64,000 nucleotides of DNA from Selenomonas sp. F0473 (GTDB lineage Bacteria > Bacillota > Negativicutes > Selenomonadales > Selenomonadaceae). The stretch lies in NCBI RefSeq assembly GCF_000315545.1, contig NZ_JH992902.1, positions 1,198,470-1,262,469 on the forward strand, written 5' to 3'. The position numbers and the translations under genes were made by a program. The notes under the pieces are model-generated. The model had not been told where the DNA came from. It saw nothing but the letters and a program-made list of their open reading frames with translations, and made no database searches. This document shows positions 5,979 through 60,372 of the stretch, one piece after another; position 1 is the first letter of the stretch, and the number at the start of each line of letters is the position of its first letter.

Positions 5979-6039
5979 CAAAAATACCTCCTCAACAATC
6001 TCTCTGTCGGCCCGACTTGCCGAGCTGAATATCCGTCGC

Positions 6040-7071
6040 CTACTCGTTCACCGCCCCATAGCGCTCTGGATATAAGCCTCTCTTTACAATACGCAGCCCC
6101 TCGGCCGTCTTGACCGCCGTCGCGTACATATACGCGAACGGCAGCATATAAACCCGCCCGTTCTGCACGGCACGCAGCGAACTGAACCGCGGTTCCTTGA
6201 AAAACGCCGTTGACTTATCCATCTGCGCCAGATTGAAGTACACGACAAATATCACATCGGGGTCCGCCGCAATGAGGTCCTCCGGCCCCACCGTCCTGCT
6301 CTTCACAGGCATCTGCCCGCCCAAGCGATTCACCATATCTCCGATGAGCCAACCGTCGTCATAGTTGGCAATTCGATTACCGGTTAGTTCGACAACCATG
6401 ACATTCTGTGCTTCTCCATGCACCGTATCATGTGCCGCGTACTCCAGTTCCGTATGAATCTCGCGAATCACCTTCTCCGCCTTTTCCCTCACGTCAAAGA
6501 TCCGGCCCATATCTTCTAAAAATTGGCACTCATCTTCTATCGTTCCGTGCGGCACCACATGATTGGAGGTTGCGATGATATACGTGTTTATACCGCGCGC
6601 CCGCCACCACTCCGTATTCCCATACCGCACCGGAAGGAAGGTCGATTTCCAGCCTAGGATAAAATCCGGATGATACGCAACGGCTTGTTCCCTCCCTAAC
6701 TCCTGTTGTGTAATATGCTGTATTTTTGCAAATTCCTCAGGATATTTCCCCTTGAGCTCCGCATATGCTTCCGTTGTCGGCTTCATAGTAACGGCAACGA
6801 TCTTTGCCCCCTGTTCAAAAAGCAGCAATGTCTCCACTGTATTTACGCCATATACAAGGACGCGTTCCGGCATTCTATCGAAACGGATGTATGTATGTTC
6901 TTTCTTCGAATCAAACGTCTCGATCTCTACAGGGTAATGCGGAGATATCCCGGCCGTCTCCCTCCCCGGCGGTAATTCCAGCGGAACGATTTCACTGTTT
7001 TTTGATGATAAAAACGATGCCGCAGCAACGAGTATAAAAAACAGAATGAGGATTTGTCTCATAATAGTCAC
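6040..7071 (-). CDS. Membrane-anchored periplasmic substrate-binding protein (BtuF/FepB-like)
   Basis: About 340 residues, a paralogue of the protein at 71-1072. The start is uncertain: a GTG at 7071 lies 4 bases after GAGG, while an ATG at 7062 (MRQILILF) lies 13 bases after it. The N-terminus is one hydrophobic helix without a lipobox cysteine. Shared blocks include MPERVLVYGVN, PDFILGWKSTF, a WWRARG block, ECQFLEDMGRIFD and AADPDVIFVVYF. It sits between receptors, so the operon repeats a receptor/binding-protein pairing without an ATPase or permease in view. It would deliver the ligand released by the receptors to an inner-membrane importer, which may be encoded just beyond position 1 or in the right-hand operon. 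Confidence 0.8.
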   Translation of the reverse strand: MTIMRQILILFFILVAAASFLSSKNSEIVPLELPPGRETAGISPHYPVEIETFDSKKEHTYIRFDRMPERVLVYGVNTVETLLLFEQGAKIVAVTMKPTTEAYAELKGKYPEEFAKIQHITQQELGREQAVAYHPDFILGWKSTFLPVRYGNTEWWRARGINTYIIATSNHVVPHGTIEDECQFLEDMGRIFDVREKAEKVIREIHTELEYAAHDTVHGEAQNVMVVELTGNRIANYDDGWLIGDMVNRLGGQMPVKSRTVGPEDLIAADPDVIFVVYFNLAQMDKSTAFFKEPRFSSLRAVQNGRVYMLPFAYMYATAVKTAEGLRIVKRGLYPERYGAVNE

Positions 7072-7163
7072 ATTACCTCAAAACGGCAGTATGGTCTCAT
7101 GTATCTTAAAAAATACATATCGGCGTCGCGTCGGCCCTCCCGTCACACTCTATACAAAACCGC

Positions 7164-9470
7164 CTAAAATTTATACTTCATACCGATCATAAAGTGCCTG
7201 CCGAGCTGCGGCCAAGCCCCCTTGCCCAGATAGCTGGTATAGACCGTCTGATACGCCTGATTGGTCAAATTGACGATTGAGGCATATATTGTCAGATCTT
7301 TGTGTATCGCGTAGTTTGCATTCAGATCCAGTATAAACGCCCGTCTGGCAGTGTAAGCCATCGTGTCACAGCCCGTGTACCATGTGCTTGTAATCGTGGC
7401 GTACAACTTATCGTTTTCATACGCAAGATCTGCCGTGTAGTTATTGGCCGGACGCAGCCGATTAATGACGGAGTTGACGTTGCCGTCGGCCCATTTCAGT
7501 TCCGGGTCAAAAATCATTCCGTCCTTTGCGGAGAAATTATCGTATGCGTGTGAATAACTAGCGGTCAATGTCAGATGCGGATTAAAGCGATGCTGCAGGG
7601 AGAGATTAACGGCCTTTTTTATCTCCTTCGCATTGACAAACTTGAGTTTGAAATCATCTATCCCTTGATCCCAAACACTATAACGAACGACGGCATTGCT
7701 CATTCTCGTATAGTTATAGTGTATGGAAGCCGTTGTCTTTGCAGAAAACTCACGCCGAATACCGATGCTCCACACATCCCCTTTTTCATCCTGAAGCTTT
7801 GCGAAGTCGGTATCGTTTTTTGCCGTATAGTCGCTAGGACGCAGCGGCCGGCGCACTTTACTGTATCCGAAATAGGCGGTAGTCTTCCGATCCAACGCAT
7901 ACTGTGTGTTGAGCGACGGCGTTATGGTATTCGTCGTTGACCCCACGGTACTTCTTACCCCATCCTGAGAGACTGTCGCCCCGTCGCTGTAATGTGCGAA
8001 ACGGAGTGAAGGAGTAAGCTCCCATTTATCAGAAAGCAGAATTTTATCCTGAATGTACCCGATAACAGAATTTCTCTTAACAGACGCCTGCTTTCCGGTT
8101 GTCACAGTCGTATTAAAATATTTTGAATGATCATAGGTCCATGTTGTGAGAACGTCATGTTTCCCATATGCCTTGCCTACCTGAAATTGGATTCCTTGAT
8201 TTTTCAGCTGATGAAACCAATGTCGATTACTTCTGTCTCGATAATGAGCCCTGCCCCATTCATACCACTCCGGCGTATCCGGAACAGGCGAATCCTTTTG
8301 CGTTCTGCCGCCAAATGACCCCCAATATCGTTCATTTTGATCATAGATACGAACGAAACTCTCCATTCCGTTTTCCCGATTAAATATATACGTCAGATCG
8401 GTATTATTTTTATTGTATGCATTATATGAACCGGTCACCGCCCACATATACCATAGCGTCCGATAGCCGGGATTTTTGGGGTCGCCGGTTATTTTATTGT
8501 CAAAATAATCGTGTTTGATGCGGTCCCAGTCTGCTTGATTAAAATATTTATGATCCGGCGCCGTCAAGGGATAATCCGCATCGCTCTGCATATGGTTGTA
8601 TGCCGCCCGCAACGTATGCAGCTTGTCAAAATCATAATCAAAACGGAAGTTCAGATACTCTTCCTTATATCCCGTATTGACATAAGTGTAATTTTTCCCG
8701 CTAAGCCCATCCTTATATTTTGCGTCGCCCCCCATTTCTCTCCCCAGAGAAAAGAAATATTTCATCTTTCCTTGAGCGGTGCTCCCCGAATAATTGAACC
8801 GATAGTTATGCCGTCCCCACGAACCGGTTGATAAATCCAGCGTTCCTGTCGCTCGGTCGCCGCCTTTGCGCGTGATAATATTAATTACTCCGCCGGTCGC
8901 GTCCGAACCGTAGAACGAGCCGCCGGGGCCCTTGATCACCTCAATCTTTTCAATATTATCGATATTTGTAATCTGATTGATGTCCACCATTGCTTTTGAG
9001 CGATGTGACGATGTGCTTGCGATGGCGCTGCCCGCCGTATTGTCCATCCGCCGTCCGTCAACGAGAACCACAACGCGGTCGTCTCCGTTGATCGTTACGA
9101 TATTGTGCGTCTGCGTATAACCAAACTCACCGCCGCGATATCCCGGCGTTTTAATCTGAACCCCCGGTACTTGCCGCAGCGCGTCGCTCAGCTGATCATA
9201 ATGCCGTCGCTCAAGAGTTTCCCTATCAATTACGTTAACGTCTCCGCCGGTACGGTAATAGGACTGCTCAGTCACAGCATTGCCAAAATAATCTATCGAA
9301 GTATTTCCTTCAACTTCAATATCTCTTGCCACGTATGTCTGCGTGCGTGAAGACTTTGTCTCCTCGTTTTTCTCGGCAGTCTCCGCCGCATAAGCATGCG
9401 CTGTGCCCGCGCATAGGGACAGCGATAACAGCGCACATAGGGTCAGGCGTTCCTTTTTATTTTGTGCCAC
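7164..9470 (-). CDS. TonB-dependent receptor, TEQSYYRTGGDV subfamily (first gene after riboswitch)
   Basis: Predicted 768-residue receptor starting at GTG 9470, with GGAGAG 6 bases upstream; two sister genes also use GTG in this context. Signal peptide up to about AHAYA, linker QTYVARDIEVEG, then FGNAVTEQSYYRTGGDVNVID, plug blocks VLVDGRRMDN, IEKIEVIKGPGGSFYGSDA and GGVINIITRKGG, barrel ending GMKYKF. First cistron downstream of the riboswitch at 9685-9830, so its transcription should fall when cobalamin is abundant. It is the intact relative of the interrupted receptor at 11497-13860 and of the N-terminal half of the chimera at 9945-11447. A role in corrinoid or related chelate uptake is inferred from the riboswitch and the BtuB-like plug. 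Confidence 0.9.
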   Translation of the reverse strand: MAQNKKERLTLCALLSLSLCAGTAHAYAAETAEKNEETKSSRTQTYVARDIEVEGNTSIDYFGNAVTEQSYYRTGGDVNVIDRETLERRHYDQLSDALRQVPGVQIKTPGYRGGEFGYTQTHNIVTINGDDRVVVLVDGRRMDNTAGSAIASTSSHRSKAMVDINQITNIDNIEKIEVIKGPGGSFYGSDATGGVINIITRKGGDRATGTLDLSTGSWGRHNYRFNYSGSTAQGKMKYFFSLGREMGGDAKYKDGLSGKNYTYVNTGYKEEYLNFRFDYDFDKLHTLRAAYNHMQSDADYPLTAPDHKYFNQADWDRIKHDYFDNKITGDPKNPGYRTLWYMWAVTGSYNAYNKNNTDLTYIFNRENGMESFVRIYDQNERYWGSFGGRTQKDSPVPDTPEWYEWGRAHYRDRSNRHWFHQLKNQGIQFQVGKAYGKHDVLTTWTYDHSKYFNTTVTTGKQASVKRNSVIGYIQDKILLSDKWELTPSLRFAHYSDGATVSQDGVRSTVGSTTNTITPSLNTQYALDRKTTAYFGYSKVRRPLRPSDYTAKNDTDFAKLQDEKGDVWSIGIRREFSAKTTASIHYNYTRMSNAVVRYSVWDQGIDDFKLKFVNAKEIKKAVNLSLQHRFNPHLTLTASYSHAYDNFSAKDGMIFDPELKWADGNVNSVINRLRPANNYTADLAYENDKLYATITSTWYTGCDTMAYTARRAFILDLNANYAIHKDLTIYASIVNLTNQAYQTVYTSYLGKGAWPQLGRHFMIGMKYKF

Positions 9471-9583
9471 TTGATCTCTCCTCTCCTGTTACAACGACAT
9501 ATTCGTTATAGGATCAAACCGCGCTGCCGCATCTCCGGCAAAAACAGTTCCACCTGACCCTCCAAAATAAAATCTTCGGTTCC

Positions 9584-9622
9584 CAAAATAAAACGCCTTC
9601 TTGCCTACATGGCAAAAAGGCG
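9584..9622 (-). terminator. Riboswitch expression-platform terminator
   Basis: On the minus strand CGCCTTTTTGCC is followed by a short loop, GGCAAGAAGGCG and then TTTTATTTT. It lies between the cobalamin aptamer and the receptor start, which suggests transcription-level control. Confidence 0.75.
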
Positions 9623-9684
9623 CAACTATCCTCTCAAAGCGCTCCTCCCTGTCGATCGCAGGTGATTACGGCGTTCCAACTAGG

Positions 9685-9830
9685 CAGTTCTTCTGGCTTT
9701 GCATCATCGTCTTCCTCGCCTTCCCGATTGCCCAGTGACATGAATGAGGTCGACTCCGCATTACAGCTGCGGGACAGCGCAGGTTTCTCACCTGCTTCTC
9801 TATTGAGCGCAACGCGCACCTAATCGGATC
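9685..9830 (-). promoter_or_regulatory. Cobalamin (B12) riboswitch aptamer
   Basis: Read on the minus strand it begins with a GGTGC-containing strand and continues through the conserved core CTGTCCCGCAGCTGTAATGC. The B12-box variant TGTCACTGG follows, and the closing GCCAGAAGAACTGCC segment completes it. These are the diagnostic blocks of the cobalamin riboswitch. It precedes a terminator and then the receptor at 9470. Three further copies are at 14.1, 43.0 and 60.2 kb. Confidence 0.92.
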
Positions 9831-9866
9831 GTATTTAATTTTATTTGATATTAAAAATTCATGCGT

Positions 9867-9895
9867 AGATTATCATGTCATAAATAAAATGTCAA
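9867..9895 (-). promoter_or_regulatory. Sigma-70 promoter of the left receptor operon
   Basis: Minus-strand -35 TTGACA at 9890-9895 and -10 TAATCT at 9867-9872 with a 17-base spacer, immediately upstream of the riboswitch aptamer. The surrounding DNA is markedly AT-rich compared with the flanking genes. Confidence 0.8.
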
Positions 9896-9944
9896 GAGGC
9901 AAAGTTTTCATGTTTTTCGGTTCTAATCGATGTGCCGTGAAATC

Positions 9945-11447
9945 TCATCCGTCGGGATACAGGCCGCTCTTAATGATGCGCAGCCCCTCCACAGTACGAA
10001 CGGCGGGCGTATACACGCAGGCGAACGGCAGCATATAGACGCGCCCGCCCCGCACCGCGCGCAGGAAGTTGAACCGCCGGCTGCGGAAGAACCGCTCCGC
10101 ATGCGCCTTGTCATACGCGCCGAAATACAGCACGAAGATAACGTCGGGATCGATTTGCAGCAAATCCTCCGCCCCGATCATTGCGCTCTTCACCGGCATC
10201 CGTCCGCCGAGGCGCACGACCATATCGCCCACAAGGTCGCCTTCGTCATAGTTGACAATCTCGTCCCCGTTCAGCTCGACGACCACGACCGTCTGCGGTA
10301 TCCGTGCAGCGGCATCGCCTTCATCGTATACGAGCATAGCGTTAATCTCTTTGATCAGCACGTCCGATTTTTCCTGCACATCAAAGACGCGCCCCATGTC
10401 GTCGATAAAGCCGCACTCCCCCTCGATCGTCGCGCGGCCCCGCACGCGGTTCGACGTGGAGACGATGTAGGTATCGACGCCGCGTTCGTTCCACCAGCGG
10501 GTGCTCCCATAGCGGTGCGGGGAGAATGTCGAGCGCCAGCCCAAAAAGAAGTCGGGCATATATGCGATCGCGTGCTCTCGGCTGAGCTCACGCCGCGCCG
10601 CATGACGAATTTTTTCAATCTCGTCTGGATACTGTTCCCGCAGCCGTTCATAGACCGCGCCGCCCGTATCGAGCGTCACGCCGACGATCCGATCGCCCTG
10701 TCCGAGGGCAAGCAGCGTCTCGAGCGTATTCGTCTGATGCACGAGAACACGTGTCGGCGGACGCTGCAGTGTGATCCGCGTCGGCCGCTTTGCCGAATCA
10801 TAGGTATCGATCACACGGGGATAACCTGCGGCGGTACCGGAGGGCGCCGCCTCCTGCGGCTCCAAATCAACAATCTCGCTGCTGCGGGACGCGAGCGCGG
10901 CCGACAGCCCCGCGATGACCTCAATCTTTTCTATGCCGTTGATATTGATGATTTGATTAATATCAACCGTCGCTTTCGTATTTCCCACGGAGTCCCATGT
11001 TGTCACATTTCCGGCGGCGTTATCCATACGGCGTCCGTCAACAAGCACAACGACGCGATCATCGCCGTTAATACTAACGACGCTGTGCGTATTTCCGTTT
11101 TGGAACTCGCCGCCGCGGTAGCCCGGCGTGCGGATGAGGACGTCCGGCACCTGCCGTAGGGCGTCGGTCAGCTGATCGTAATGCCGCCGGTCGAGCGTCT
11201 TGCGGTCGATGACGGTGACGTCGCCGCCCGTACGATAGTAGGACTGCTCGGTAATCTCGTTGCCGAAATAGTCGCGGGCCGCCTCGCCCTCGACCTCAAC
11301 GTCGCGGGTCACATAGGTCTGCGACGATTCCCTTGTATTTTCATCATCATCGGTTGTCTTTTCCGCATAGACGTCCGCGCTTCCCGCACATACGGACAGC
11401 GACAACAGCACGCCCAAAGTCAGACGCATCTTTTCTTTTCGATTCAC
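9945..11447 (-). CDS. Chimera: TonB receptor N-terminus/plug fused in frame to a periplasmic binding protein
   Basis: Predicted 500 residues from a GTG at 11447 (GGAG 7 bases upstream, same start context as the two neighbouring receptors). Residues 1 to about 178 are a receptor N-terminus: signal peptide, QTYVTRDVEVEG, FGNEITEQSYYRTGGDV, VLVDGRRMDN, ending in IEKIEVI. The next residue should be the K of KGPG; instead the reading continues AGLSAALASRSSEIVDLEP. That aligns with the hydrophobic N-terminus of the binding protein at 6040-7071 (AAASFLSSKNSEIVPLEL), followed by a complete binding-protein domain to the stop at 9945. The end of the plug and the whole barrel are missing. Simplest origin: a deletion in a duplicated receptor/binding-protein pair. 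The product would be exported by the receptor's signal peptide; whether it works is unknown. Confidence 0.85.
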   Translation of the reverse strand: MNRKEKMRLTLGVLLSLSVCAGSADVYAEKTTDDDENTRESSQTYVTRDVEVEGEAARDYFGNEITEQSYYRTGGDVTVIDRKTLDRRHYDQLTDALRQVPDVLIRTPGYRGGEFQNGNTHSVVSINGDDRVVVLVDGRRMDNAAGNVTTWDSVGNTKATVDINQIININGIEKIEVIAGLSAALASRSSEIVDLEPQEAAPSGTAAGYPRVIDTYDSAKRPTRITLQRPPTRVLVHQTNTLETLLALGQGDRIVGVTLDTGGAVYERLREQYPDEIEKIRHAARRELSREHAIAYMPDFFLGWRSTFSPHRYGSTRWWNERGVDTYIVSTSNRVRGRATIEGECGFIDDMGRVFDVQEKSDVLIKEINAMLVYDEGDAAARIPQTVVVVELNGDEIVNYDEGDLVGDMVVRLGGRMPVKSAMIGAEDLLQIDPDVIFVLYFGAYDKAHAERFFRSRRFNFLRAVRGGRVYMLPFACVYTPAVRTVEGLRIIKSGLYPDG

Positions 11448-11496
11448 TTGATTTCTCCTTTCAATGGTACGGCGCATATGGTCTGCCCCCCAACCG

Positions 11497-13860
11497 TTAG
11501 AATTTATACTTCACGCCGAATATGACGGCGCGTCCCGGCTGCGGCCATGCGTTTTTGCCCATATAACGCGTATAGAGCGTCTGATACGCTTGATTGGTCA
11601 GATTCGTCACGGACGCATAGACGGTCATATCGTCCGTCACAGCATAGTTCACGTTGAGGTCGAGAATGAGCGCGCGGGAACTCGTATACGCGGTCGTATT
11701 CGATCCCGTATACCACGTCGCCGCAAGAGAGGTGTAGAGTCTGCGGTTCTCATAAGCAAGGTCCGCAATATAGACGTTCGCGGGGCGCAGTTTATTGATG
11801 ACAGAGTTGATATTGCCTTCGTTTACGGTCAGCCCGCTCTTGAACTTCAGGCCGTTCTTCGCCGAATATTCATCGAACGCATGAGAGTAGTTTGCGTTCA
11901 GCGTCAGATGCTTGTTAAACTGATGCTGCACAGAGACATTGAACGACTTTTTCAATTCCCGCGCATTCACACCGACGGCATATTCTTGATAATCTTCATT
12001 CCAAACGGGATAGGAGACGACCGCGTTGCTCATGCGCGTATAGTCATAGTTGACCGCCGCCGTCGTCTTTGGCGACAGTTCGCGGCGCATGCCGAGCGTC
12101 CAAACGTCGCCCTTCTCATCCCGGAGGCGGCTGAATACGTTGTCATACGGATCCCAATGGTCTTCCACCTTGATGGGGCGGTACACATGGCTCCACCCGA
12201 AGTATGCGCTCGTCTTATCGTCAAAAGCATACTGCGTATTGAGCGAAGGCGTCAGCGCGTGCGCACTCCCAATATGAACGGAGGTATATTCATCCGTGTC
12301 CATATCCACATATGTGACGTCGGCCGCGCCATAGCGAACGTAGCGCAGGGACGGCGTGAGTTCCCACTTATCGGAGATAAAGATCTTATCCTGCACATAG
12401 CCGCTCAGTGTGGGGCGCTCATGGCGCACCATCTGTACTCCGTAGATATCGGGATCCTCCGGATTAAACCAGTGATCCGCCTTCGCCCGGTCGTACGTCC
12501 ATGTTGTCAGCACATTGTGCTTGCCGTACGCTTTGCCGAGCTGGAGCTGGACGCCCCTGTTCTGCAGCTGATGGAACCATTTTTTATAATCGCGTCCTCT
12601 GTAATTGTCCTTCAGCCATTCATACCATTCGGGCGTTCCGGGGAACGGGGTCCCTGTTCCGGGAATATAATTGCCGTGCGCGTCTTTTTGATACCTTTTC
12701 CATTTGCCGCCCTACGATCCCCAATAGCGTTCATGCTGATCGTAGACGCGTACGAAGCTCTCCATTCCGTTCTCACGGCTGAACGTATAGGATAGGTCGA
12801 AATTATTCTTGTTGTAGGCGTTATACGCGCCCGCCGCCGCACGGACAATCGGCCACCGATTTCTAAAACCGGGCGTTGCAAGCGTCCCGCCGCCCTCCGT
12901 GATGCTGCACGGCCAATCCTGCGGGTTCAAATAGCGATAGTCGGGCGCAACCACGGGATAGGCCGCATCGCTCTGCATATGGTTGTAGTTAAAACGCAGA
13001 TTATGAATTTTATCGAAATCATAGTCGAGGCGAATGTTCGCCGAATCGTCCCGATAGCGCGTGAACGGGTAGGTTTGATCTTTGCCCGTGAGGCCGTCAT
13101 GAAATTTACTGTCGCCGCTCATCTCGCGCGTCACGGACGTAAAATATTTCAGCTTATTGTCGCCGCTCGTGCCCGAGTAACTCAATCGGTAGTTGTGTTT
13201 CCCCCACGATCCCGTCGATATATCGAGCTCTCCGACAGGCTTCTTCGCGCCTTTGCGCGTGATGATGTTGATGACGCCGCCCGTCGCGTCCGAGCCGTAA
13301 AAGGACGCGCCCGGTCCCTTCATGACCTCGATCTTCTCGATGCTGTTCATATTGATCGTATGATTGATGTCAACGGAGACTTTGGTGGACGATGTCGAGC
13401 TCTGCGATATAGGGTTGAACGCGCCGTTGTCCATGCGCCGCCCGTCTACAAGTATAATGACGCGGTCGTCTCCGTTGATGCCGACGACGTTGTGCCCGTT
13501 GCTCTGTTCATTGTATTCCCCGTTATGGAATCCGGGGGACCGCACGAGCACGCCCGGCACCTGCCGCAGGGCGTCGGTCAGCTGGTCGTAATGCCGGCGG
13601 TCAAGCGTCTTGCGGTCGATGACGGTGACGTCGCCGCCCGTGCGATAGTAGGACTGCTCCGTGATTTCGTTGCCGAAATAGTCGCGCGTCGCCTCGCCCT
13701 CAACCTCAATATCCTTCGTCACATAGGTCTGCGACGCAGACCCATCTTTAGCCGAATCCGCGTCAGCTGTCTTTTCCGCATAAACGTCCGCCCCTCCCGC
13801 ATATATGGACAGCGACAACAGCACGCCCAACGTCAGGCGCATTTTCCCCTTTCGATTCAC
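11497..13860 (-). pseudogene. TonB-dependent receptor interrupted by one in-frame amber codon
   Basis: One continuous reading frame of 788 codons from GTG 13860 (GGAG 7 bases upstream) to TAA at 11497, broken only by TAG at 12712-12714. Before the stop the reading ends QHERYWGS; after it, it resumes GGKWKRYQKD and continues with EWYEWL and a normal barrel ending GVKYKF. The intact paralogue at 7164-9470 reads NERYWGSFGGRTQKD at the same place, so the TAG replaces one residue and nothing else is lost. N-terminal features match the subfamily: FGNEITEQSYYRTGGDV, VLVDGRRMDN-type and KGPGASFYGSDA blocks. Either a recent nonsense mutation, a sequencing error or a read-through codon; the ATG at 12513 has no obvious ribosome site for reinitiation. 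First gene after the riboswitch at 14090-14240. Confidence 0.85.
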
Positions 13861-13994
13861 TTGATTTCTCCTTTCAGCCATACCGCGCATAGCTCATGCG
13901 CCATAGATACGAGACGCCGCATCGCCGGACACGCGGCGCGTCACGCGCCGTTCCCGCCCGGCCCTACCGTTTTGTAAGAAACACGCGATAGGCG

Positions 13995-14031
13995 CAAAAT
14001 AAAAGCCTTCTTGCTCGCATGGCAAAAAGGC
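13995..14031 (-). terminator. Riboswitch expression-platform terminator
   Basis: Minus-strand GCCTTTTTGC, short loop, GCAAGAAGGC then TTTTATTTT. It is nearly identical to the terminator at 9584-9622 and has the same position relative to its aptamer. Confidence 0.75.
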
Positions 14032-14089
14032 GCAGACAAATCCTATCTCATCGCGCCTCCCTGTCGGTCGCAGGTATTCTCGGCGTTCT

Positions 14090-14240
14090 TAATCAGGCAG
14101 GTCTTCCGGCTCTGCTTCATCGCTTGCCTCGTCTTCCCGGTTTCCCAGTGACATCGTGAGGCCGGCTCAGCATTACGGCTGCGGGACAGCGCAGGCATCT
14201 CACCTGCTTCCCTATTGAGCGCGCTGCGCACCTGATCGGC
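14090..14240 (-). promoter_or_regulatory. Cobalamin (B12) riboswitch aptamer
   Basis: Minus-strand copy with GATCAGGTGC, the core CTGTCCCGCAGCCGTAATGC, B12 box TGTCACTGGG and the closing AGCCGGAAGACCTGCC. It is strongly similar to the riboswitch at 9685-9830, which points to duplication of the whole control region. It precedes the interrupted receptor and the chimera. Confidence 0.92.
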
Positions 14241-14279
14241 AGCTATTCAGCTTTGTAGAATATTAAAAATAACACATGC

Positions 14280-14308
14280 AGATTATCATAGTATAAATAG
14301 GATATCAA
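14280..14308 (-). promoter_or_regulatory. Sigma-70 promoter of the second receptor unit
   Basis: Minus-strand -35 TTGATA at 14303-14308 and -10 TAATCT at 14280-14285, 17-base spacer. The sequence around it closely resembles the promoter at 9867-9895. Confidence 0.75.
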
Positions 14309-14402
14309 GCGGACTCCTAACAAAAAGAGAAAAAACAATTACCGTTATTTTCTCATCGCACTGCTTCCCGGTCAATCCGCACTCTTAGAATATGTCCGTA
14401 CG

Positions 14403-14447
14403 AAGAAAAAGCTGCGCCCCTGTCTTTCAACAAGGCACAGCCTGTTT
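14403..14447 (-). terminator. Intrinsic terminator of the DASS transporter gene
   Basis: On the minus strand GCTGTGCC and GGCGCAGC pair across a short loop, followed by TTTTTCTT, directly after the stop at 14462. The stretch between it and the promoter at 14308 shows no gene. Confidence 0.7.
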
Positions 14448-14461
14448 TCATAGGCATTGAA

Positions 14462-15871
14462 CTACCACAAGCCGATCATCTTCCACCACGCCGCGCCGAT
14501 CGTGAGGTAGACGAGCGTCGTGCATGTTGTCGCGACGAAGCCGTTGCGCCACCATTCTCCCTGCGAAACATAGCCTCCGCCGAAATAGATCGGAGCGCAG
14601 CCGTTGCCGTAGTGGGTGAGAGAAATGGGAACATCCGCGAAAATACCGAAGACGATTGCCGTCATAAGGGGCGGCGCCCCAACGGTCGCACACACGGCAA
14701 TGAACGCGGCATAGAGGGCGCTGATGCGCGCCGTCACACTGGCAAAGCAGTAGTGCACGTAGGTGTAAAAGAGCAGCAATATGAGTGCCGAGCCGATCCA
14801 GCCCAGTCCGATGGAGGAAATCGCGGCGCCCGCGCCCTCCGCCATCCACTTAATAATGCCCGATTTTGCGAGCGCAGAGGCGAGCGTCATCAGCGAGCCC
14901 ATCCAAAACATCGCGTCCCACGCGCCTTTTTCCGTGATGACATCCTGCCAGTTGATAACATTGAGGATAATCATGACACAGACCGCCCCCATTGCCACGG
15001 GTGTCGCGCCGATGCCCGTAAATCCCGACGTCGCCCAAAGCAGGAGCGAGACGATGAAGATGACGGAGAGGTATTTCTCGCCGCTCGACATGGGGCCCAT
15101 CGCCGCGAGCTCCTTCTCCGCCAAGCCGCGCGCGTTCGGGATGCTGACAAGCTCCGGTTTTGCGAGTTTCATCATGAGGAGCGGAACGAGCAGCAGGCTG
15201 ACGAGTCCGGGCACGATTGCGGCGCTTGCCCACCCCATCCATGTAATTTCAACGTCCAGCGCCTTCGCCGCAAGGGCGACGCAGAGCGGGTTGCCCGCCA
15301 TGGATGTGACAAACATGGTACAGGTCACGGCGTCGCAGTGGTAGCCGACCTGCATGAGATAGGCGCCGATCCGCCGCGATGTCTCGCCCGGTTCAGACCC
15401 GAGCGCCCCCGCGAGCGAGCGGACAATGGGGTACATGATGCCGCCGCCGCGCGCCGTAGCCGAGGGCGTCGCCGGCGCAATGACCAGCTCGCTGAGGGCA
15501 ATCGCATAGCCGAGCGACAGCGCGCTCTTTCCGATCACGCGAATAATGCCGAACGCGATCCGTTTTCCCAGGCCGCTTTTGATGAATCCGCGCGAATAGA
15601 GAAAGGCGCAGACGATCAGCCAAATGGTGCTGTTGCCGTAGCCGCTGAGCGCATCGCTCACCTTCAGCAGGCCGGCGCACGTCGTAAACGTCACGGCGAT
15701 AAAGGCGACCGCACCGATCGGCAGCGGCTGCAGGATAAAGCCGAGCACTGTTGCGACGAACACCGCCATAAGATGCCACGACTCCTGCGTCACTTCTGCG
15801 GGAACGGGAGAAAACCACAGCCCCGCAAAGATGACAAGCGTAACGAGTGCATTACGTTGCTTTTTGCTCAT
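14462..15871 (-). CDS. DASS-family anion:sodium symporter/antiporter (TtdT/CitT-like)
   Basis: Predicted 469-residue inner-membrane carrier with about 12 hydrophobic segments. The ATG at 15871 is chosen because AGG of GAGGTGA lies 8 bases before it; the ATG at 15880 is almost on top of the site. Family blocks: GYGNSTIWLIVCAF in the first half, APATPSATARGGGI mid-protein, and a second-half segment with LTHYGNGCAPIYF near the C-terminus, as in plant-type and bacterial dicarboxylate/tartrate translocators. It is a different branch from the two shorter DASS permeases at 29663 and 60630. Monocistronic, with a terminator after it. Substrate is probably a di- or tricarboxylate such as malate, citrate or tartrate. 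Confidence 0.85.
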   Translation of the reverse strand: MSKKQRNALVTLVIFAGLWFSPVPAEVTQESWHLMAVFVATVLGFILQPLPIGAVAFIAVTFTTCAGLLKVSDALSGYGNSTIWLIVCAFLYSRGFIKSGLGKRIAFGIIRVIGKSALSLGYAIALSELVIAPATPSATARGGGIMYPIVRSLAGALGSEPGETSRRIGAYLMQVGYHCDAVTCTMFVTSMAGNPLCVALAAKALDVEITWMGWASAAIVPGLVSLLLVPLLMMKLAKPELVSIPNARGLAEKELAAMGPMSSGEKYLSVIFIVSLLLWATSGFTGIGATPVAMGAVCVMIILNVINWQDVITEKGAWDAMFWMGSLMTLASALAKSGIIKWMAEGAGAAISSIGLGWIGSALILLLFYTYVHYCFASVTARISALYAAFIAVCATVGAPPLMTAIVFGIFADVPISLTHYGNGCAPIYFGGGYVSQGEWWRNGFVATTCTTLVYLTIGAAWWKMIGLW

Positions 15872-35751: not shown

Positions 35752-36691
35752 TTTGCCCATCCCCCAGCCGCAGATTCGGTTTTAACATCACATAGAACAC
35801 ATCGACGCACATGTTCACGACAATCATCATGCAGCCGACCATCAGCACATAGCCTTGGATCATCGGATAGTCACGAGCCTGCACCGCCGTCAGCGCGAGC
35901 GTGCCGAGCCCGGGCAGGGCAAAGATCAGCTCGATGATCGCCGCGCCGCCGAGCAGAGCGCCCGCGTAGTTGCCGAGCATCGTCGCGGTTGCAATGAACG
36001 CGTTGCGCAGGGCGTGGCGGTAGACGATGTAAAAGAGCGGGAGCCCCTTTGCCCGCGCCGTCAGGATGTAGTTCTCCGCGAACACCTCTGTCAGCGCGTC
36101 CCGCTGGAGCCGCATCACCGCGCCGATCGTCCCCGCGCCGAGGACGAGCCCCGGCAGCAGCAGATGGCGCACCGTCCCGTAGCCGCTCGTGGGGAAGATG
36201 CGCAGGTTCTCGCAGAGGATCTGCATGAGGACGATCGCGAGCCAAAAACTCGGCAGAGACGTCAGCGCGATGGAGAGCAGCGTCAGCCAGCGCTCCGCCG
36301 CCCCGTGCCGATACACCGCCATGACGGCGCCGAGCGGCACGCTGAGGAGGATCACCCAAAGGAGCGCCATGCCCGCGAGCGAGAGCGTCACGGGGAGTGC
36401 CTGCAGGAGTTCCTGCAGCACGTTTTTCCCCGTGATAAAGGAGACGCCCCAGTCCCCGCGGAGCACCCCGCCGAGCCACGCGGCGTACTGCACGGCATAG
36501 GGGCGGTCGAGCCCGAGTTCCACCCGCTTCGCCGCGATCTCCTCCGGCGTCGGGGCGGTCACGCCGTCCATCGTCATGATCACCGCCGCCGGATCGGAGG
36601 GCGAGATAAAGCCGAGCGCAAAGACCAGCGCCGTCATGCCGACGAGGGTCGGCAGGAGGAGCAGCAGGCGCTGCCGGAAATACGTTTTCAT
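35744..36691 (-). CDS. Opp/Nik-family ABC importer, permease subunit 1 (NikB/DppB-like)
   Basis: Predicted 315 residues, starting 4 bases after the binding-protein gene. N-terminal helix LLLLLPTLVGMTALVFALGF, the ELGLDRPYAVQYAAWL and LRGDWGVSF blocks of DppB/NikB, and the EAA loop ARAKGLPLFYIVYRHALRNA. Forms the translocation path with the NikC-like partner. Confidence 0.88.
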   Translation of the reverse strand: MKTYFRQRLLLLLPTLVGMTALVFALGFISPSDPAAVIMTMDGVTAPTPEEIAAKRVELGLDRPYAVQYAAWLGGVLRGDWGVSFITGKNVLQELLQALPVTLSLAGMALLWVILLSVPLGAVMAVYRHGAAERWLTLLSIALTSLPSFWLAIVLMQILCENLRIFPTSGYGTVRHLLLPGLVLGAGTIGAVMRLQRDALTEVFAENYILTARAKGLPLFYIVYRHALRNAFIATATMLGNYAGALLGGAAIIELIFALPGLGTLALTAVQARDYPMIQGYVLMVGCMMIVVNMCVDVFYVMLKPNLRLGDGQND

Positions 36692-36695
36692 CGCT

Positions 36696-38264
36696 TCACC
36701 GCCTCTCCACCTGATCCAGCGTAATGCCGTACGTCGTCGCGTTGTAGCCCGTCAGCTCCGCGGCATTGTAAACCACGACGTTATTGTCGCTGCCGAAGGG
36801 GATGAGCGGCGGCGCCTCAACCGCCATATCCTGCAGTTCGTCATAGTATGCGCGGCGCCGGTCCATGTCGATCACCTCCGGCAATTCCTTAAAGACCGCG
36901 TCCGCCGCGGGGTTCTCATAGCCCACGTGGTACAGCTTATTATTGCTCCCCCACGTCGCCATATAGCTCTCCATCAGCGTCTCTGGCGCGTAGTTCGCAA
37001 GCCCGTGCGTCCCGATCGAAAAGTCGTAGTTGCCGGCGGACATGTATTTCGAATGCGTCGCGCTGTCGAGGATCAGAATGCGCGCTTCGATGTGCAGCTT
37101 CCGCAGCGCCGCCTGAAGATACTCGACCACTTCCTTGTAGGAGTAGCGGCTCAGCCCGTACTGCGGGATGAGGAACGTCGCCCGATAGGTCTCTCCTCCC
37201 ATCACTTCGTCCGCAAGGCGGACGGCCTCCGCCTCGTCGTGTACGAGCGGAATTTCTTTATAGAACGGATTGCAGCGGTTCAGCAGATTCATCGTCGGCT
37301 CCGACTGCCCGTTGAAATAGTACCGCACAATCGCTTCGCGGTCGATGAGAAGGCTGATCGCACGCATCATCCGCACATCCGAAAACGGGAAGCGGCTCTG
37401 GTTCACCGTCACATACTGATTGATCGTATTGCGGTTCGAAGAGACAGCAAAGCGCGGGTCCCGCAGCAGGGCGAGCGTGAGGGACGGCGTGAGCGAGCCG
37501 AGATCGAGGACGCCCTCCACCTCGCCCGCCCGCAGCGCCGAGAAGCGCGTGGCGGCGTTCGGCATGCTCACGAGCCGGATGTATTCGCTCTTTGCGGGCG
37601 TCCCGTGATAGCCGTCGAAACGCTTCAGCACGACATACTGCCCCGGTTTGCGGTCAACGATGGCAAAGGGGCCCGTGCCCACGGCATAGCCCGTGAAATC
37701 GCCCGACTCGATGTCAAAACACTTTGGACTGAACATCGGCGAGGAGAAGTTGATCATGCGGTAGACGAGCATCGGCTGCGGTTCGGAGAAACGCAGCTCC
37801 ACCTCGTCGTCGGCGATCTTCTCGATCCCCGCGTAGCCCGGATAGACGCGCGCGAGGAGGAATCCGTAAAACGACGACAGGCGATAGCCCATATTCTCCC
37901 AGCGGCGGAAATTCGCCACCACCGCGTCCGCGTCGAAGGGTTCGCCGTCTTGGAAGGAAATGCCGCGGCGCAGCTTGAACCGCCATACCGTCGCATCCTC
38001 GTTCGCCTGCCAAGACGCCGCGAGCACGCCGCGCAGATGGCCGTCGGCATCCACCCCGACGAGGGGTTCCCACACCATGCCGATACTGCTGATGTAATAG
38101 GGATCCTTCTCCCCCGGCGCGAGGTCGCGCGGCGCTGCGAGCGTGATCTCCGCGGGGTGCGCGCTCTTATCCTGCTGCACCGCCCCCGCGAGCACCGCCA
38201 GCCACAGCGCGAGGAATACCGCGAGCAGCCTGCATTTGCGCAGGTAAAACCGCAGTCGTCTCAT
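36696..38264 (-). CDS. Opp/Nik-family substrate-binding protein (SBP_bac_5)
   Basis: Predicted 522 residues. The N-terminus is basic then hydrophobic (LLAVFLALWLAVLAGAV) with no lipobox cysteine, so it is either cleaved or membrane anchored. Family blocks include WEPLVGVDADGHLRGVLAASW, WRFKLRRGISFQDGEPFDADAVVANF and YAVGTGPFAIVDRKPGQYVV, plus MMRAISLLIDREAIV. These place it with NikA/DppA/opine-metallophore binding proteins. In a B12-riboswitch operon surrounded by siderophore-type receptors, a cobalt- or nickel-chelate, or a small peptide-like metallophore, is a reasonable guess. Heme and dipeptides are alternatives. Confidence 0.85.
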   Translation of the reverse strand: MRRLRFYLRKCRLLAVFLALWLAVLAGAVQQDKSAHPAEITLAAPRDLAPGEKDPYYISSIGMVWEPLVGVDADGHLRGVLAASWQANEDATVWRFKLRRGISFQDGEPFDADAVVANFRRWENMGYRLSSFYGFLLARVYPGYAGIEKIADDEVELRFSEPQPMLVYRMINFSSPMFSPKCFDIESGDFTGYAVGTGPFAIVDRKPGQYVVLKRFDGYHGTPAKSEYIRLVSMPNAATRFSALRAGEVEGVLDLGSLTPSLTLALLRDPRFAVSSNRNTINQYVTVNQSRFPFSDVRMMRAISLLIDREAIVRYYFNGQSEPTMNLLNRCNPFYKEIPLVHDEAEAVRLADEVMGGETYRATFLIPQYGLSRYSYKEVVEYLQAALRKLHIEARILILDSATHSKYMSAGNYDFSIGTHGLANYAPETLMESYMATWGSNNKLYHVGYENPAADAVFKELPEVIDMDRRRAYYDELQDMAVEAPPLIPFGSDNNVVVYNAAELTGYNATTYGITLDQVERR

Positions 38265-38336
38265 GAAGCGCCTCCTCTCGGGCCGTCATGCGGAAAACGC
38301 CGCACACCGACAAGCGGTATGCGGCGTACGCATATA

Positions 38337-40541
38337 TTAAATATCAAACTGCGCCGAGAACATCCATGTGCGCGGCATCGACAGGCCGAACGTCGACGAC
38401 CCGCCGCGCCCCATCCAGTAACTCTTGTTGAGCGCGTTGTAGCACATGAGGCTCAGCTTCGTCGGCACCGTGTTGATGCGCGTCTTATACGTCATCCCGA
38501 GATCCACCGTCGCGTACGCGGGGATCTCGATCTTGCCCCTGCCCGACGTATTCTCAATGTAGGCCTTATCGCTCCAAACGAGGCGCCCGATGAAGCTGCA
38601 CGCGTCCGTCGGCTCATAGGTAAGACCGACGACGCCCGAGTACTTTGCGGCGCCCGTGACGAACGCGCCGTCCTTCGCCCCGCCCGCCGTATGCGCTCGT
38701 TCGGCGTCGAGATAGAGGAGGCCGCCCGTCACCGTCCACTTCGCGTGAGGCTTGCCGTTCGCCGTGTACTCGATCCCGCGGTAGCGGTTCTTGCCGTCCG
38801 CCGCGCGGCGATAGTTGGTGCCGCCGAGCGGCACGTCAATCAGATTCGGCTCGTCGATCTCGAAGAAGCTCAGCGTCGAAAGCACGCCGCCCGCCAGATG
38901 CTTGACGCCGATCTCGTTCTGCCTGCTCCGCACGGGCGCGAGCGTTTCCCCCTCGTTGATATACGTTTTTGTGCTGCTGTTCATGACAACCGCGCCGCGC
39001 GAGAAACTCTCCGTATGCCCGTAGTAGATCGACGTGCGCTCCGTCGGACGGTAGGTCAGTCCCCACGTCGGCAGGATATTCGTGTTCTCGATCGTCTTGC
39101 CCGAGGAAATATTTTTGAAATGCTCATGTTTCTGCGACGCCGCGAGCAGTACGTTCCACTTGCCGACGTGCATGGCGTCCGCAAGCGTCACGCCGACGTT
39201 CAGCTCCTCCCACTGCGGCAGATAGGGCTTATAGCTCGGCACCGTAAAGCCCGGCAGGAAGGAAATCCCGTCGTAGAGGTTCCCGCCGTAGAGATTATAG
39301 CCGCTCCAATTGTTCGCGTTCCAGTACTTCGCCCACGAGCGGTCGACGGACAGCGCAAAATCGTGATGCACCGCCCCCGTCACCGCGGTTCCCTTGATGC
39401 CCGCCTGCAAATAGACGTTGCGCGCCGCCTCGTGCTGCGCGTTCGAGCGGTTGCTCCCGGTGAAGTTCCCGTTCGCGTCGAATGCCAAACTGGCGCCCGA
39501 GTTGTACTTCTCCCCGTCGCGGCGCGAGAATCCGACGTTGAAGAACGCCGTATAGCGGTCGTCGATCTTTTGCTCGTGATTCAGCGTGAGGATATGCCCC
39601 CACATGCGTTTCGTCGTCTCCTTGAAGTCGTACGGCGTCGCCGCATCCGGCACCGTCGGCAGCTGCGCCGTATTGCCCGTGTAGGTGAACCAGCGCTGCG
39701 CGCCGTCCACGCGCTGGTCGAAGAATCCCGCGAAGAGATTCGTCGTGCTCCGCGCATCATGGTGGTCGAGGTTGAAGAAGATATTGCTGTTGTGCATCTC
39801 GGCGTCCCGCAGCGACATCTTCCCGTGCAGAAGCTCGCCGTTCACGCGCAGCCCCCACGCCTCGTCCCTGCCGAAGCGGCGGCCGACGTCGATGTACTCG
39901 CCGAACGTCCCGCGTCCGCTCACGACCTGCGTATAGCGCGTGACGGGCACGGCGCCCGCACGCTTCGTCACGATATTGACCGTGCCGGGCGCCGGCGTCG
40001 CGCCGCCGTTCGTGCCGTTGTTGGACATGCTGACGCCGTTGACGGCGGCGTTCGGTCCCGAGGTGATGTCCATGCGCGCGATCACATGAGACGGCGGCGT
40101 CGTGAACTGCGAGTAAAGACTCGGCACGCCGTTCACCATCATGTGGTTGCCGTTCATATTGATGCCGCGCATGGAGAAGTCGCTGTACATCGGCGAGCTC
40201 GTGCTCGAGCGGATGGACGGGTTGTTGAGCAGCACGTTCGCGAGCGGCTGGCTCGGGTCGTTGTACGTCTCGAGCATCTTCTCCGTCATGCTCATCTCCG
40301 AATACGGCACCGCAAAGATGCTCTGCGCGCCGAGCACGCCGAGTTTCGTCTGCTCCTGTACCATGCCGCCCGGCACGCTCTCGCGCCGGCCCTCCACGTC
40401 GACGGGATCGAGCTCATAGGTATCGACCGATCCCGCCCCGCGGCCGTCCGTCTTCTCTGCGGCGGATGCGGCATGCGCCGACGGACAGGCATACATCGTA
40501 AGTGCCGCGAGCACCGCCGCGGTCAGTTGTTTCCTACGCAT
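38337..40541 (-). CDS. TonB-dependent siderophore-type receptor
   Basis: Predicted 734 residues; tandem ATGs at 40544 and 40541 follow GGGAG, the second being better spaced. Signal peptide RRKQLTAAVLAALTMYACPS, linker VDTYELDPVDVEGRRE, plug with FSMRGINMNGNHMMVNGVPS, IARMDITSGPNAAVNGVS and GTVNIVTKRAG, and a barrel ending FSAQFDI. Part of the three-receptor set of this operon. It starts 19 bp after the preceding receptor and lies 72 bp before the binding-protein gene. The TGP(N) plug loop is shared with the other right-hand receptors and separates them from the KGPG receptors on the left. Confidence 0.88.
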   Translation of the reverse strand: MRRKQLTAAVLAALTMYACPSAHAASAAEKTDGRGAGSVDTYELDPVDVEGRRESVPGGMVQEQTKLGVLGAQSIFAVPYSEMSMTEKMLETYNDPSQPLANVLLNNPSIRSSTSSPMYSDFSMRGINMNGNHMMVNGVPSLYSQFTTPPSHVIARMDITSGPNAAVNGVSMSNNGTNGGATPAPGTVNIVTKRAGAVPVTRYTQVVSGRGTFGEYIDVGRRFGRDEAWGLRVNGELLHGKMSLRDAEMHNSNIFFNLDHHDARSTTNLFAGFFDQRVDGAQRWFTYTGNTAQLPTVPDAATPYDFKETTKRMWGHILTLNHEQKIDDRYTAFFNVGFSRRDGEKYNSGASLAFDANGNFTGSNRSNAQHEAARNVYLQAGIKGTAVTGAVHHDFALSVDRSWAKYWNANNWSGYNLYGGNLYDGISFLPGFTVPSYKPYLPQWEELNVGVTLADAMHVGKWNVLLAASQKHEHFKNISSGKTIENTNILPTWGLTYRPTERTSIYYGHTESFSRGAVVMNSSTKTYINEGETLAPVRSRQNEIGVKHLAGGVLSTLSFFEIDEPNLIDVPLGGTNYRRAADGKNRYRGIEYTANGKPHAKWTVTGGLLYLDAERAHTAGGAKDGAFVTGAAKYSGVVGLTYEPTDACSFIGRLVWSDKAYIENTSGRGKIEIPAYATVDLGMTYKTRINTVPTKLSLMCYNALNKSYWMGRGGSSTFGLSMPRTWMFSAQFDI

Positions 40542-40559
40542 CATTTCTCTCCCGCCCCC

Positions 40560-42755
40560 TTACAGATCCATCGCCATCGAGAGCGCGAACGTGCGCGGCG
40601 TCGAGAGATAAAGGCTCTTATCGGAGCGCGACGCCATCCAGTACTCCTTGTCGAGCACGTTGTAGACCGTCAGGCCGAACGTCGTCGGCACGGAGCCGAG
40701 CCGCGTCTTATAGGTCACGCCGAGATCGAACACGGTATTCGAGGGGACTTTAAATTTTTCATCGTACGTCCATGCCGCCCCCGCGTAAGTCATGCGGGCA
40801 AAGGCGCCGAATTTCTCATCCGCCGTATAGCGCGCCATGATCGTCCCGTTCCAACGCGGCTGTCCGTCGGGCGTCATGCCGTTCTGCGCGCCGTTCTTCG
40901 TTTTCTCTTTGGTCGCGCGCATATAGGCAAGCCCCGCCGCAAGCGACCATTTCGGCGCGATCTTGCCGCCGATGCCGAGTTCGACGCCGCGGTGACGCTC
41001 CTCGCCGTTCTGCTCCAAATACAGCCTGCTGTTGCGGGTCACTTCGATATTATTCGCCTGCGTGATGTCAAAGAGCGCAAGGGAATAGAGCACGCCCTTA
41101 TTGCCGTACTTCACGCCGATTTCGTTCTGCTTCGTTTTAGAGGGCGGCAGAATCTCCCCCCCGTTCGCATATTTGGTCGCAACGGCGGCTCCGACGTCAA
41201 AATACTCCGCGTGGCTCGCATAGACGGTAATATCTTCCGTAGGGCGGTAGGAGAGCGCGTAGGTCGGCGTCGTCGCGCTCGAATCCACGCTCGACGATAC
41301 GCGTCCCGTGTGCAGATTATAGGATTTCACATTCGCGGAATGATGATGTACGCCGAGGATCATGTTCCACTTATTGAACGTAATCGAGTCGACAAGCGAG
41401 ACGCCCTTGATGCTCGTCTTATTGTTCATCGAGGTATCGTAAGCCGTATTCGCCATACTGTGCTGATTGAGGATGCCCGTATAGAGGTTGCCCGTGCCGA
41501 GAGAATACACGGTGGTGCCGTCGGGCACCGCCTCCCGCGCGCGCCATGCGCGGTCGGCGGCCAGCGTGACCTCGTGTTCCGCCGCGCCTGTATCAAATTT
41601 GCCGCCGACGCCCATCTGGATATAGTGCGCGCGCTGCGGCGTTGAGGACCGCTGCGCTCTGAGATCGAAATTCCCCGCGTCGTCCAAAATCGTGAGCGCG
41701 CTGTACTCGTACATGACGTTCTTGTTCAGCTTGTTCCGCAGCAGCCCCGCGTTCAGGAACCATTTCCAATCCTCCGAGAACTTCTGCTCGTGATTGAGGA
41801 TCATCATCCAGCCGTAGGATTCCTTGTCCATCCCGTCGAACGCATAGTTGCGCGACGCTTTCGGCACGGCCGGCAGGCGGCTGATTTTGGGGGTCCCGTC
41901 CGGATTGCTGCCGATCTTGAACCAGCGCTGCCCGCCGACGATCTCGTTCTGACGGTAGCCCGTGAAGAAGTTGGTCTTGCTCCTCGCGTCCTGCCGGTCG
42001 AGGTTGATATAGATGCCCGCAGATTTGACCTTCTGCCCGTCGACCGCGGTCTCGCCGTCCACCTTCTCCGCGTTGAGGCGCACGCCCCATGTGCGGTTCT
42101 TGCCGAAACGACGCCCGAGATCGAAATAAAATCCGCCCATACTATGCCCGGAGTGCGTTAGCGTGAGCCGCGTAATATCCTCATGGGCCCGCTTCGTCGT
42201 AAAGTTCACAATGCCGCCGGCCGCCGTCGACTCGTAGTGGGTGCCCGTACCCGCAAGGCCGCTGTTCGGCCCCGAGATCACGTCGGTCTTCTCCACGGCG
42301 AACATCGGCGCGTTGAACTGCGTGAACATGCCCGGCACATTGTTGACATAGGTGCTCGTACCGTTCGCGCGGAACCCGCGATGCTGGAAGTCGTTGTGCA
42401 GGATGCTGCCCGTCGGGCGGATCGACGGCGAGATCGAGAGCACGCTGTCGAGCGGCTGCGTCGGGTCGCTAAAACTCTGAATCGTCTCCTTCGTGATGTT
42501 CGTCGTCGTGAAGGGGGTCTCCATCGCGGACTTCTCGCCGAGGAAACCGACCGTGCCCTCCGTCGCGGTGAAGTTTTCCGCGCCCTCCTCCGCACGCCGT
42601 CCCTCGACATCGACCGGGTCAAGCTCGTAGGTATCGACCGACGTCCCTCCCCCGCGGACATCCGCCTTCTCTGCGGCAGACGCGCCGCTTCCCCATACCG
42701 TGCTCGTCCCGAGCGCCGCAATCGCGACCGCAAGCGCCAGCTTTCGTTTTTTCAT
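40560..42755 (-). CDS. TonB-dependent siderophore-type receptor (first gene after riboswitch)
   Basis: Predicted 731 residues from ATG 42755, with GGAGGAG 8 bases upstream. The signal peptide KKRKLALAVAIAALGTSTVW is nearly the same as those of the receptors at 51544 and 57754. The linker is VDTYELDPVDVEGRR, the plug has HRGFRANGTSTYVNNVPG, VEKTDVISGPNSGLAGTG and GIVNFTTKRAH, and the barrel ends ALSMAMDL. First cistron under the riboswitch at 42920-43078. It is probably a paralogue arising with the right-hand receptors by duplication that included the riboswitch. Confidence 0.88.
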   Translation of the reverse strand: MKKRKLALAVAIAALGTSTVWGSGASAAEKADVRGGGTSVDTYELDPVDVEGRRAEEGAENFTATEGTVGFLGEKSAMETPFTTTNITKETIQSFSDPTQPLDSVLSISPSIRPTGSILHNDFQHRGFRANGTSTYVNNVPGMFTQFNAPMFAVEKTDVISGPNSGLAGTGTHYESTAAGGIVNFTTKRAHEDITRLTLTHSGHSMGGFYFDLGRRFGKNRTWGVRLNAEKVDGETAVDGQKVKSAGIYINLDRQDARSKTNFFTGYRQNEIVGGQRWFKIGSNPDGTPKISRLPAVPKASRNYAFDGMDKESYGWMMILNHEQKFSEDWKWFLNAGLLRNKLNKNVMYEYSALTILDDAGNFDLRAQRSSTPQRAHYIQMGVGGKFDTGAAEHEVTLAADRAWRAREAVPDGTTVYSLGTGNLYTGILNQHSMANTAYDTSMNNKTSIKGVSLVDSITFNKWNMILGVHHHSANVKSYNLHTGRVSSSVDSSATTPTYALSYRPTEDITVYASHAEYFDVGAAVATKYANGGEILPPSKTKQNEIGVKYGNKGVLYSLALFDITQANNIEVTRNSRLYLEQNGEERHRGVELGIGGKIAPKWSLAAGLAYMRATKEKTKNGAQNGMTPDGQPRWNGTIMARYTADEKFGAFARMTYAGAAWTYDEKFKVPSNTVFDLGVTYKTRLGSVPTTFGLTVYNVLDKEYWMASRSDKSLYLSTPRTFALSMAMDL

Positions 42756-42864: not shown

Positions 42865-42919
42865 TGGGGGGACGGCCGGCGGCGCATCCGCGCGCATCGG
42901 CTCATTCATCCTTCTCGGC

Positions 42920-43078
42920 GCACGAGATTCGGTAGGTCTTCCGGCTCTGCGTCATCGTCCGCCCCGCCTTCCCGCTTGCGCAGTGACATTGTGGGGCTTC
43001 CTCGGCATTACGGCGGCGGGACCGCATCGGCTTTGCACCGATTTCCCTGTTATCCCCGAAGGGCACCGAATCTGCTTA
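42920..43078 (-). promoter_or_regulatory. Cobalamin (B12) riboswitch aptamer
   Basis: Minus strand: ATTCGGTGCCC, GGTGCAAAGCCGATGCGGTC, CCGCCGCCGTAATGCCGAGG, the B12 box TGTCACTGCG and the closing AGCCGGAAGACCTACCGAAT. The outer strands GATTCGGT and ACCGAATC form P1. It is very similar to the copy at 60165-60345. Confidence 0.93.
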
Positions 43079-43108
43079 TGAAGTTAAAATAAGATAAATA
43101 CTGATTGG

Positions 43109-60099: not shown

Positions 60100-60164
60100 C
60101 GGTCACAGCGCATCGCGCTGCGCATCCGCGCGCACACGAGTGCTGCCGTTCCCGGCGTACGAGG

Positions 60165-60345
60165 TTCGGTAGGTCTTCCGGCTCTGCGTCATCGTCCGCC
60201 CCGTCTTCCCGGTCTCCCAGTGACATCGTGAGGCGTCCTCGGCATTACGGCGGCGGGACCGCATCGGCTTTGCACCGATTTCCCTGTTACCCCGCGCGCA
60301 TCGGCAGTACGCCGACGTCCGCGCGGGCACCGAACCTGCTTATGA
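60165..60345 (-). promoter_or_regulatory. Cobalamin (B12) riboswitch aptamer
   Basis: Minus strand: AGGTTCGGTGCCC, a variable GC-rich arm, GGTGCAAAGCCGATGCGGTC, CCGCCGCCGTAATGCCGAGG, B12 box TGTCACTGGG, closing AGCCGGAAGACCTACCGAAC. It controls the eleven-gene uptake operon running to 45590. Confidence 0.93.
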
Positions 60346-60372
60346 AGTTAAAACAAAATAAATTCACATTGG

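Follow-up and report, generated by a model that had tools for sequence, protein, structure and literature searches.

The genome of Selenomonas sp. F0473 contained a gene, FUS, in which most of the plug of a TonB-dependent receptor is joined in frame to a periplasmic binding protein (BP), and this plug-to-BP fusion was confirmed as genuine. The gene lies in a window of 64,000 bases, which is the whole stretch of DNA analyzed in this study, and the host genome consists of a single contig of 2,065,801 bases (a 2.07-Mb chromosome). FUS is a real and unusual gene, ordinary in its likely origin, and its function is putative.

The fusion gene and its junction

The features of FUS were identified as follows.

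9945..11447 (-), fusion gene FUS, 500 aa from the GTG at 11447, based on the open reading frame, its translation, and the Plug and Peripla_BP_2 matches
11364..11447 (-), putative receptor-type signal peptide with a charged start and a hydrophobic core, based on the receptor alignment, with the proposed cleavage site after VYA placed by eye
11286..11321 (-), candidate TonB-box region, QTYVTRDVEVEG, conserved in the alignment, which we take to hold the TonB-box motif
10884..11231 (-), Pfam Plug match covering profile positions 5-101 of 107, with its final residues beyond the junction; the plug end, KGPG...VINII, is absent
10914..10919 (-), junction GTC-ATC (Val-Ile), for which either parent could be the source
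9945..10913 (-), BP half, comprising what is left of the hydrophobic start together with the full binding domain

A ribosome-binding site (AAAGGAG) precedes the GTG at 11447 and the stop codon ends at 9945, while an in-frame ATG upstream at 11477 is an alternative start that would give 510 aa. The translation of the 500 codons had no internal stop, and both domains were found above their Pfam cut-offs in the one protein (Plug, 50.2 bits, cut-off 23.9; Peripla_BP_2, 38.2 bits, cut-off 27.5), which bears out the claim of the first-pass annotation that a frame of about 500 codons runs from a receptor plug into a BP. The beta-barrel domain (PF00593) was absent from FUS and present in the intact receptor R3, as determined by Pfam. 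The switch had been placed where relatives read KGPG, and the alignment agrees: KGPG follows IEKIEVI or variants of it in each of the 13 other receptor rows extending to the junction (a receptor fragment from congener G005 ends before this point and lies outside the count), whereas FUS reads IEKIEVI-AGLSAALAS, continuing as AGLSAALASRSSEIVDLEP. This tail aligned with the hydrophobic start of BPs, such as LLVIVGLSIFFAERNG, and the BP half lacks the front of its own signal. No fusion of this plan was described in the titles or abstract openings of the PMC literature searched, which is weak evidence.

A random deletion keeps the reading frame one time in three, and therefore the open frame of FUS is unsurprising when taken alone. 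The notable point is that neither half shows decay. At columns invariant in all other rows, FUS was changed at 1 of 35 positions in the plug (13 other receptors), namely G to D in VPG, and at 5 of 62 in the BP half (11 other BPs). The same count gave 3 of 37 for R1, the receptor gene directly upstream, and other rows ranged from 0 to 7 (plug) and from 0 to 9 (BP), with near-identical rows pushing some of these leave-one-out counts to zero; after removal of three near-identical BP rows, the BP range was 0 to 10 and FUS remained at 5 of 62. When compared with nine closer receptors, FUS was changed at 2 of 68 positions and R1 at 6 of 68. The outgroup BP L008_B, a wrong-strand row in the alignment and in the dN/dS table, was excluded from the conserved-column counts and the BP tree, L009_B was excluded from the conserved-column counts, and the receptor fragment G005_Rfrag was excluded from the plug counts; the row G013_Rb, the front of which looks unrelated to the others, lowers the number of invariant plug columns. 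Of the pseudogene signs looked for in FUS, neither an internal stop nor an excess of change at conserved sites was found. Most of the history at conserved sites may predate the fusion, and therefore these counts are no proof of selection on the fused protein. Pairwise dN/dS could be estimated for 2 of the 14 plug pairs (0.19/0.73 with R1, and 0.32/2.39, near saturation, with G013_Ra) and for none of the 13 BP pairs, and the fusion is not datable from these values.

Relatives of the two halves

Three neighboring genes bear on the ancestry of FUS.

11497..13860 (-), R1, closest receptor paralogue, just upstream of FUS, with an in-frame TAG at 12714-12712 (codon 383)
7164..9470 (-), R3, intact receptor paralogue, based on its open reading frame and Pfam
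6040..7071 (-), B3, intact BP paralogue, based on its open reading frame and Pfam

R1 was the nearest receptor of FUS, and the two were sisters in the plug tree (support 100/99) with end branches of 0.11 for FUS and 0.28 for R1. Apart from the TAG, the R1 frame stays open in both directions; the plug precedes the stop, and most of the barrel match lies beyond it. Over 189 aligned codons starting about 12 codons upstream of the GTG, third positions of FUS and R1 agreed in 86 of the first 120 codons and in 30 of the remaining 69, with the split at 120 set after the blocks had been seen; agreement was 69 of 184 with R3 and 77 of 193 with R6. Given this drop, a fresh copy of R1 was rejected as the source of the receptor part, and the FUS plug appears to be composite, an R1-like front being combined with sequence from a different and older paralogue. 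Additionally, we observed that the fronts of FUS and R1 (about 11480-11120 and 13890-13540) were much more alike than the rest and shared a 38-base exact match. This suggests gene conversion, which is likely, or recombination between the two fronts. Among 172 columns, lineage-specific changes numbered 8 in FUS and 16 in R1, with 22 undecided.

The first-pass annotation had named the pair at 9470-6040, which is R3 and B3, as the parent genes. This candidate was rejected, as the two are old paralogues by identity, tree, and composition: they shared 66-67% amino acid identity with FUS in the plug and 52% in the BP, and their GC3 values were 0.52 and 0.58 versus 0.67 and 0.75 for the FUS halves (counted from 11444 rather than 11447).

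The BP half had no close partner, its best identity being 57%, to a congener, and three other BPs at about 52% identity remain in the genome. In the BP tree, FUS was placed with B5 at 88/89, a placement that is not firm and was flagged as long branches meeting. BP genes of this kind were found in Selenomonas sp. FOBRC6, Selenomonas sp. oral taxon 892, Selenomonas massiliensis, and Centipeda periodontii. In the structure model of FUS, residues 209-499 (the BP domain) mostly had pLDDT values of at least 90, and the plug and linker were of low confidence. The fold search with this model returned binding proteins among the best 50 matches; the top PDB match was 4ljs, a periplasmic binding protein of Veillonella parvula (target TM 0.83, E 6.3e-26), and BtuF of V. 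cholerae (5ysc) was ranked 35th. FUS therefore has the class III binding-protein features of a Peripla_BP_2 match and a binding-protein fold model. As for the ligand, the riboswitch ahead of the gene row is the sole hint, and it suggests cobalamin as the predicted substrate. The plug scored from 29 to 67 in blocks of 10 residues. In a control model of the intact receptor R3 (11 rows), which was poor as a whole (mean 53.4), plug blocks scored from 22 to 43; since the plug of an intact receptor is also low in confidence, the low scores in FUS are evidence neither of disorder nor of folding. The paralogous BPs have a hydrophobic start in which no lipobox was evident by eye, and the fusion may have turned the BP from a membrane-anchored into a free protein.

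Gene rows, riboswitches, and distribution

FUS is the second gene, behind R1, in a row led by a cobalamin riboswitch, and another such element leads the next row.

14079..14250 (-), cobalamin riboswitch ahead of R1 and FUS (Rfam RF00174, 103.4 bits)
14005..14031 (-), terminator-like hairpin of 10 pairs behind that riboswitch, a possible expression platform, which stands out by its position and length
9666..9838 (-), cobalamin riboswitch leading the row that follows, R3-B3-R4-R5-B5-FecCD-R6-B6

A long terminator-like hairpin stands behind each of the two riboswitches (10 and 13 pairs), but hairpins of this type were not enriched, with 7 in 6000-14600 versus 8.4 expected in shuffles. The riboswitch ahead of R1, the stop within R1, and the patchy likeness between the fronts of R1 and FUS had all escaped the first-pass annotation. 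The in-frame stop of R1 may lower the expression of FUS behind it. The FecCD permease gene, R6, and B6 run off the start of the window; the permease gene (L046:7495-8544) was located between B5 and R6 and was the only permease among the array genes scanned. Cobalamin riboswitches were also found in all three relatives' loci scanned (L047, L048, and L050, of eight loci fetched). Elsewhere in the window, two more cobalamin riboswitches (42914-43085 and 60151-60349) were each found directly upstream of another TonB-receptor gene.

A single match spanning both halves was found in 1 of 14 genomes of the genus, 1 of 189 of the family, and 1 of 380 of the class, which in each case is this genome, the sets being nested, each including this genome, with one genome per species. 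The family and class searches used a 287-aa query spanning the junction, with at most 12 and 6 candidates scored per genome and matches listed to E values of 1e-30 and 1e-25, respectively; fusions of the same plan whose receptor or BP part is unrelated to that of FUS lie outside the reach of this query. Further genomes with the same architecture, as envisaged in the first-pass annotation, were thus not found in these sets. That annotation had also held that absence from related strains together with decaying codons would count against the fusion; FUS was absent from the 13 congeners examined, none of which is of the same species, but its codons are not decaying. In a tblastn search of plasmids, 20 records were obtained, and among the matches listed (10 of 20) none had a single place covering 80% of the query. 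Congener G005 carried a plug-only remnant of a related receptor (L054:9231-9860).

Two other long open frames were observed in the window. A frame of 1689 aa (36576-41645, (+)) is antisense to receptor genes, had no Pfam match, and is probably a by-product of G+C-rich coding sequence. A frame of 643 aa (53882-55813, (-)) had a BP match in its last third only, and its front overlaps a FecCD gene (54901-55926) in another frame; it is probably an over-extended frame and not a fusion.

Origin of the fusion and comparison with known systems

In two relatives, intact receptor-BP units have the plug and BP positions that meet in FUS at a distance of about 1.86-1.87 kb, and therefore a deletion of about that size explains the join. 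No barrel without a plug was found in the genome, and relocation of the missing barrel was rejected, as every genomic barrel match sits in a plug-bearing gene. These results support one part of the first-pass annotation's explanation by deletion in a duplicated pair, namely a deletion between a receptor and the BP behind it, whereas the parents proposed there did not hold. In our best explanation, an ancestral receptor (R2) and BP pair would have stood behind R1, and a deletion of about 1.9 kb, running from the end of the plug through the entire barrel into the start of the BP, would have left an in-frame chimera. The junction codons offer a candidate microhomology; the parents no longer exist. 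Expression of FUS would start behind the cobalamin riboswitch, and so probably when cobalamin is scarce, with translation from its own ribosome-binding site and export on the receptor signal peptide. The BP domain would fold in the periplasm and probably still act as a substrate-binding protein, and the plug arm would be a passive, vestigial leader. As it has no barrel, FUS cannot be an outer-membrane transporter. With R1 carrying a stop, the B12-regulated operon may be losing its receptors, and the fusion would be recent and tolerated rather than selected. Recency is suggested by the lack of decay and the single occurrence, a pattern that continued selection would also produce. Taken as a whole, this account, in which a recent accident left a BP to be exported by the signal peptide of a receptor with the plug as a vestige, is one we consider probable, with moderate confidence.

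An assembly artefact, with a barrel segment lost between the halves, is hardly credible even though tandem paralogues are its classic setting. The genome is a single contig, and when FUS was compared with the remaining window and a further 8,469 bases beyond its start, the longest exact match was the 38-base run, about 300 bases from the junction; repeat collapse is unlikely because the longest shared run is so short. Other genome-wide DNA matches to FUS were at most 80% identical among the matches listed (40 of 55 candidates scored), and assembly collapse was rejected on these grounds. A more serious rival, although unlikely in our estimation, is that FUS is a plain pseudogene, poorly made or degraded as a chimera and inactive, and intact only because the event was very recent. 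The stop in R1 of the same row, the occurrence of the fusion in a single genome, and the three other BPs remaining in the genome would all fit such a fate, but FUS has retained conserved positions, and its ribosome-binding site, its putative signal peptide, and its frame of 500 codons show no damage.

The converse reading, that the fusion was selected for a new function, appears improbable. The TonB-box/plug arm would bind TonB or dock near receptors, and would either compete for TonB or keep the ligand-binding domain anchored at its complex. FUS has kept a putative signal peptide, the candidate TonB box, and the greater part of the plug, with fewer lineage-specific changes than R1 (8 versus 16, with 22 undecided), but it occurs in one genome, its plug is truncated, its barrel is absent, and the model is silent on folding of the arm. 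Substrate hand-over from receptors to BPs is otherwise thought to be left to diffusion. A BP with its own TonB-box/plug arm, exported like a receptor and held at the TonB complex, might take substrate directly from outer-membrane receptors, a specific form of new function that we consider very improbable. TonB systems have been reported in Veillonella, another member of the Negativicutes (PMC5491611), and PMC11658791 describes the contact between TonB and the TonB box of receptors as an interprotein beta sheet. Given this grip, FUS may bind TonB, but nothing in our results favors this reading.

With the deletion account as the preferred reading, FUS is a clear example of tandem receptor-BP arrays yielding in-frame chimeras, as well as a warning for automatic annotation. 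If expressed, it would serve as a natural experiment on two questions, whether a plug without its barrel can be exported and is tolerated, and whether TonB-dependent uptake is affected by a TonB-box arm on a periplasmic BP.

FUS shares with TonB-dependent receptors (Plug PF07715 and barrel PF00593) a putative signal peptide, a linker, a candidate TonB box, and the greater part of the plug, but differs from them in lacking both the KGPG end of the plug and the barrel. With class III substrate-binding proteins (Peripla_BP_2, PF01497), it shares a complete, confidently modeled binding domain, for which 4ljs is the nearest solved fold, and a location among receptor genes with a FecCD permease gene in the neighboring row; unlike them, it has its own hydrophobic start partly replaced by about 178 receptor residues. 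The plug-only remnant of G005 is similar in being a related receptor cut inside the plug with a frame that has stayed open (209 aa), although its receptor match runs to plug position 162 and no BP is joined to it.
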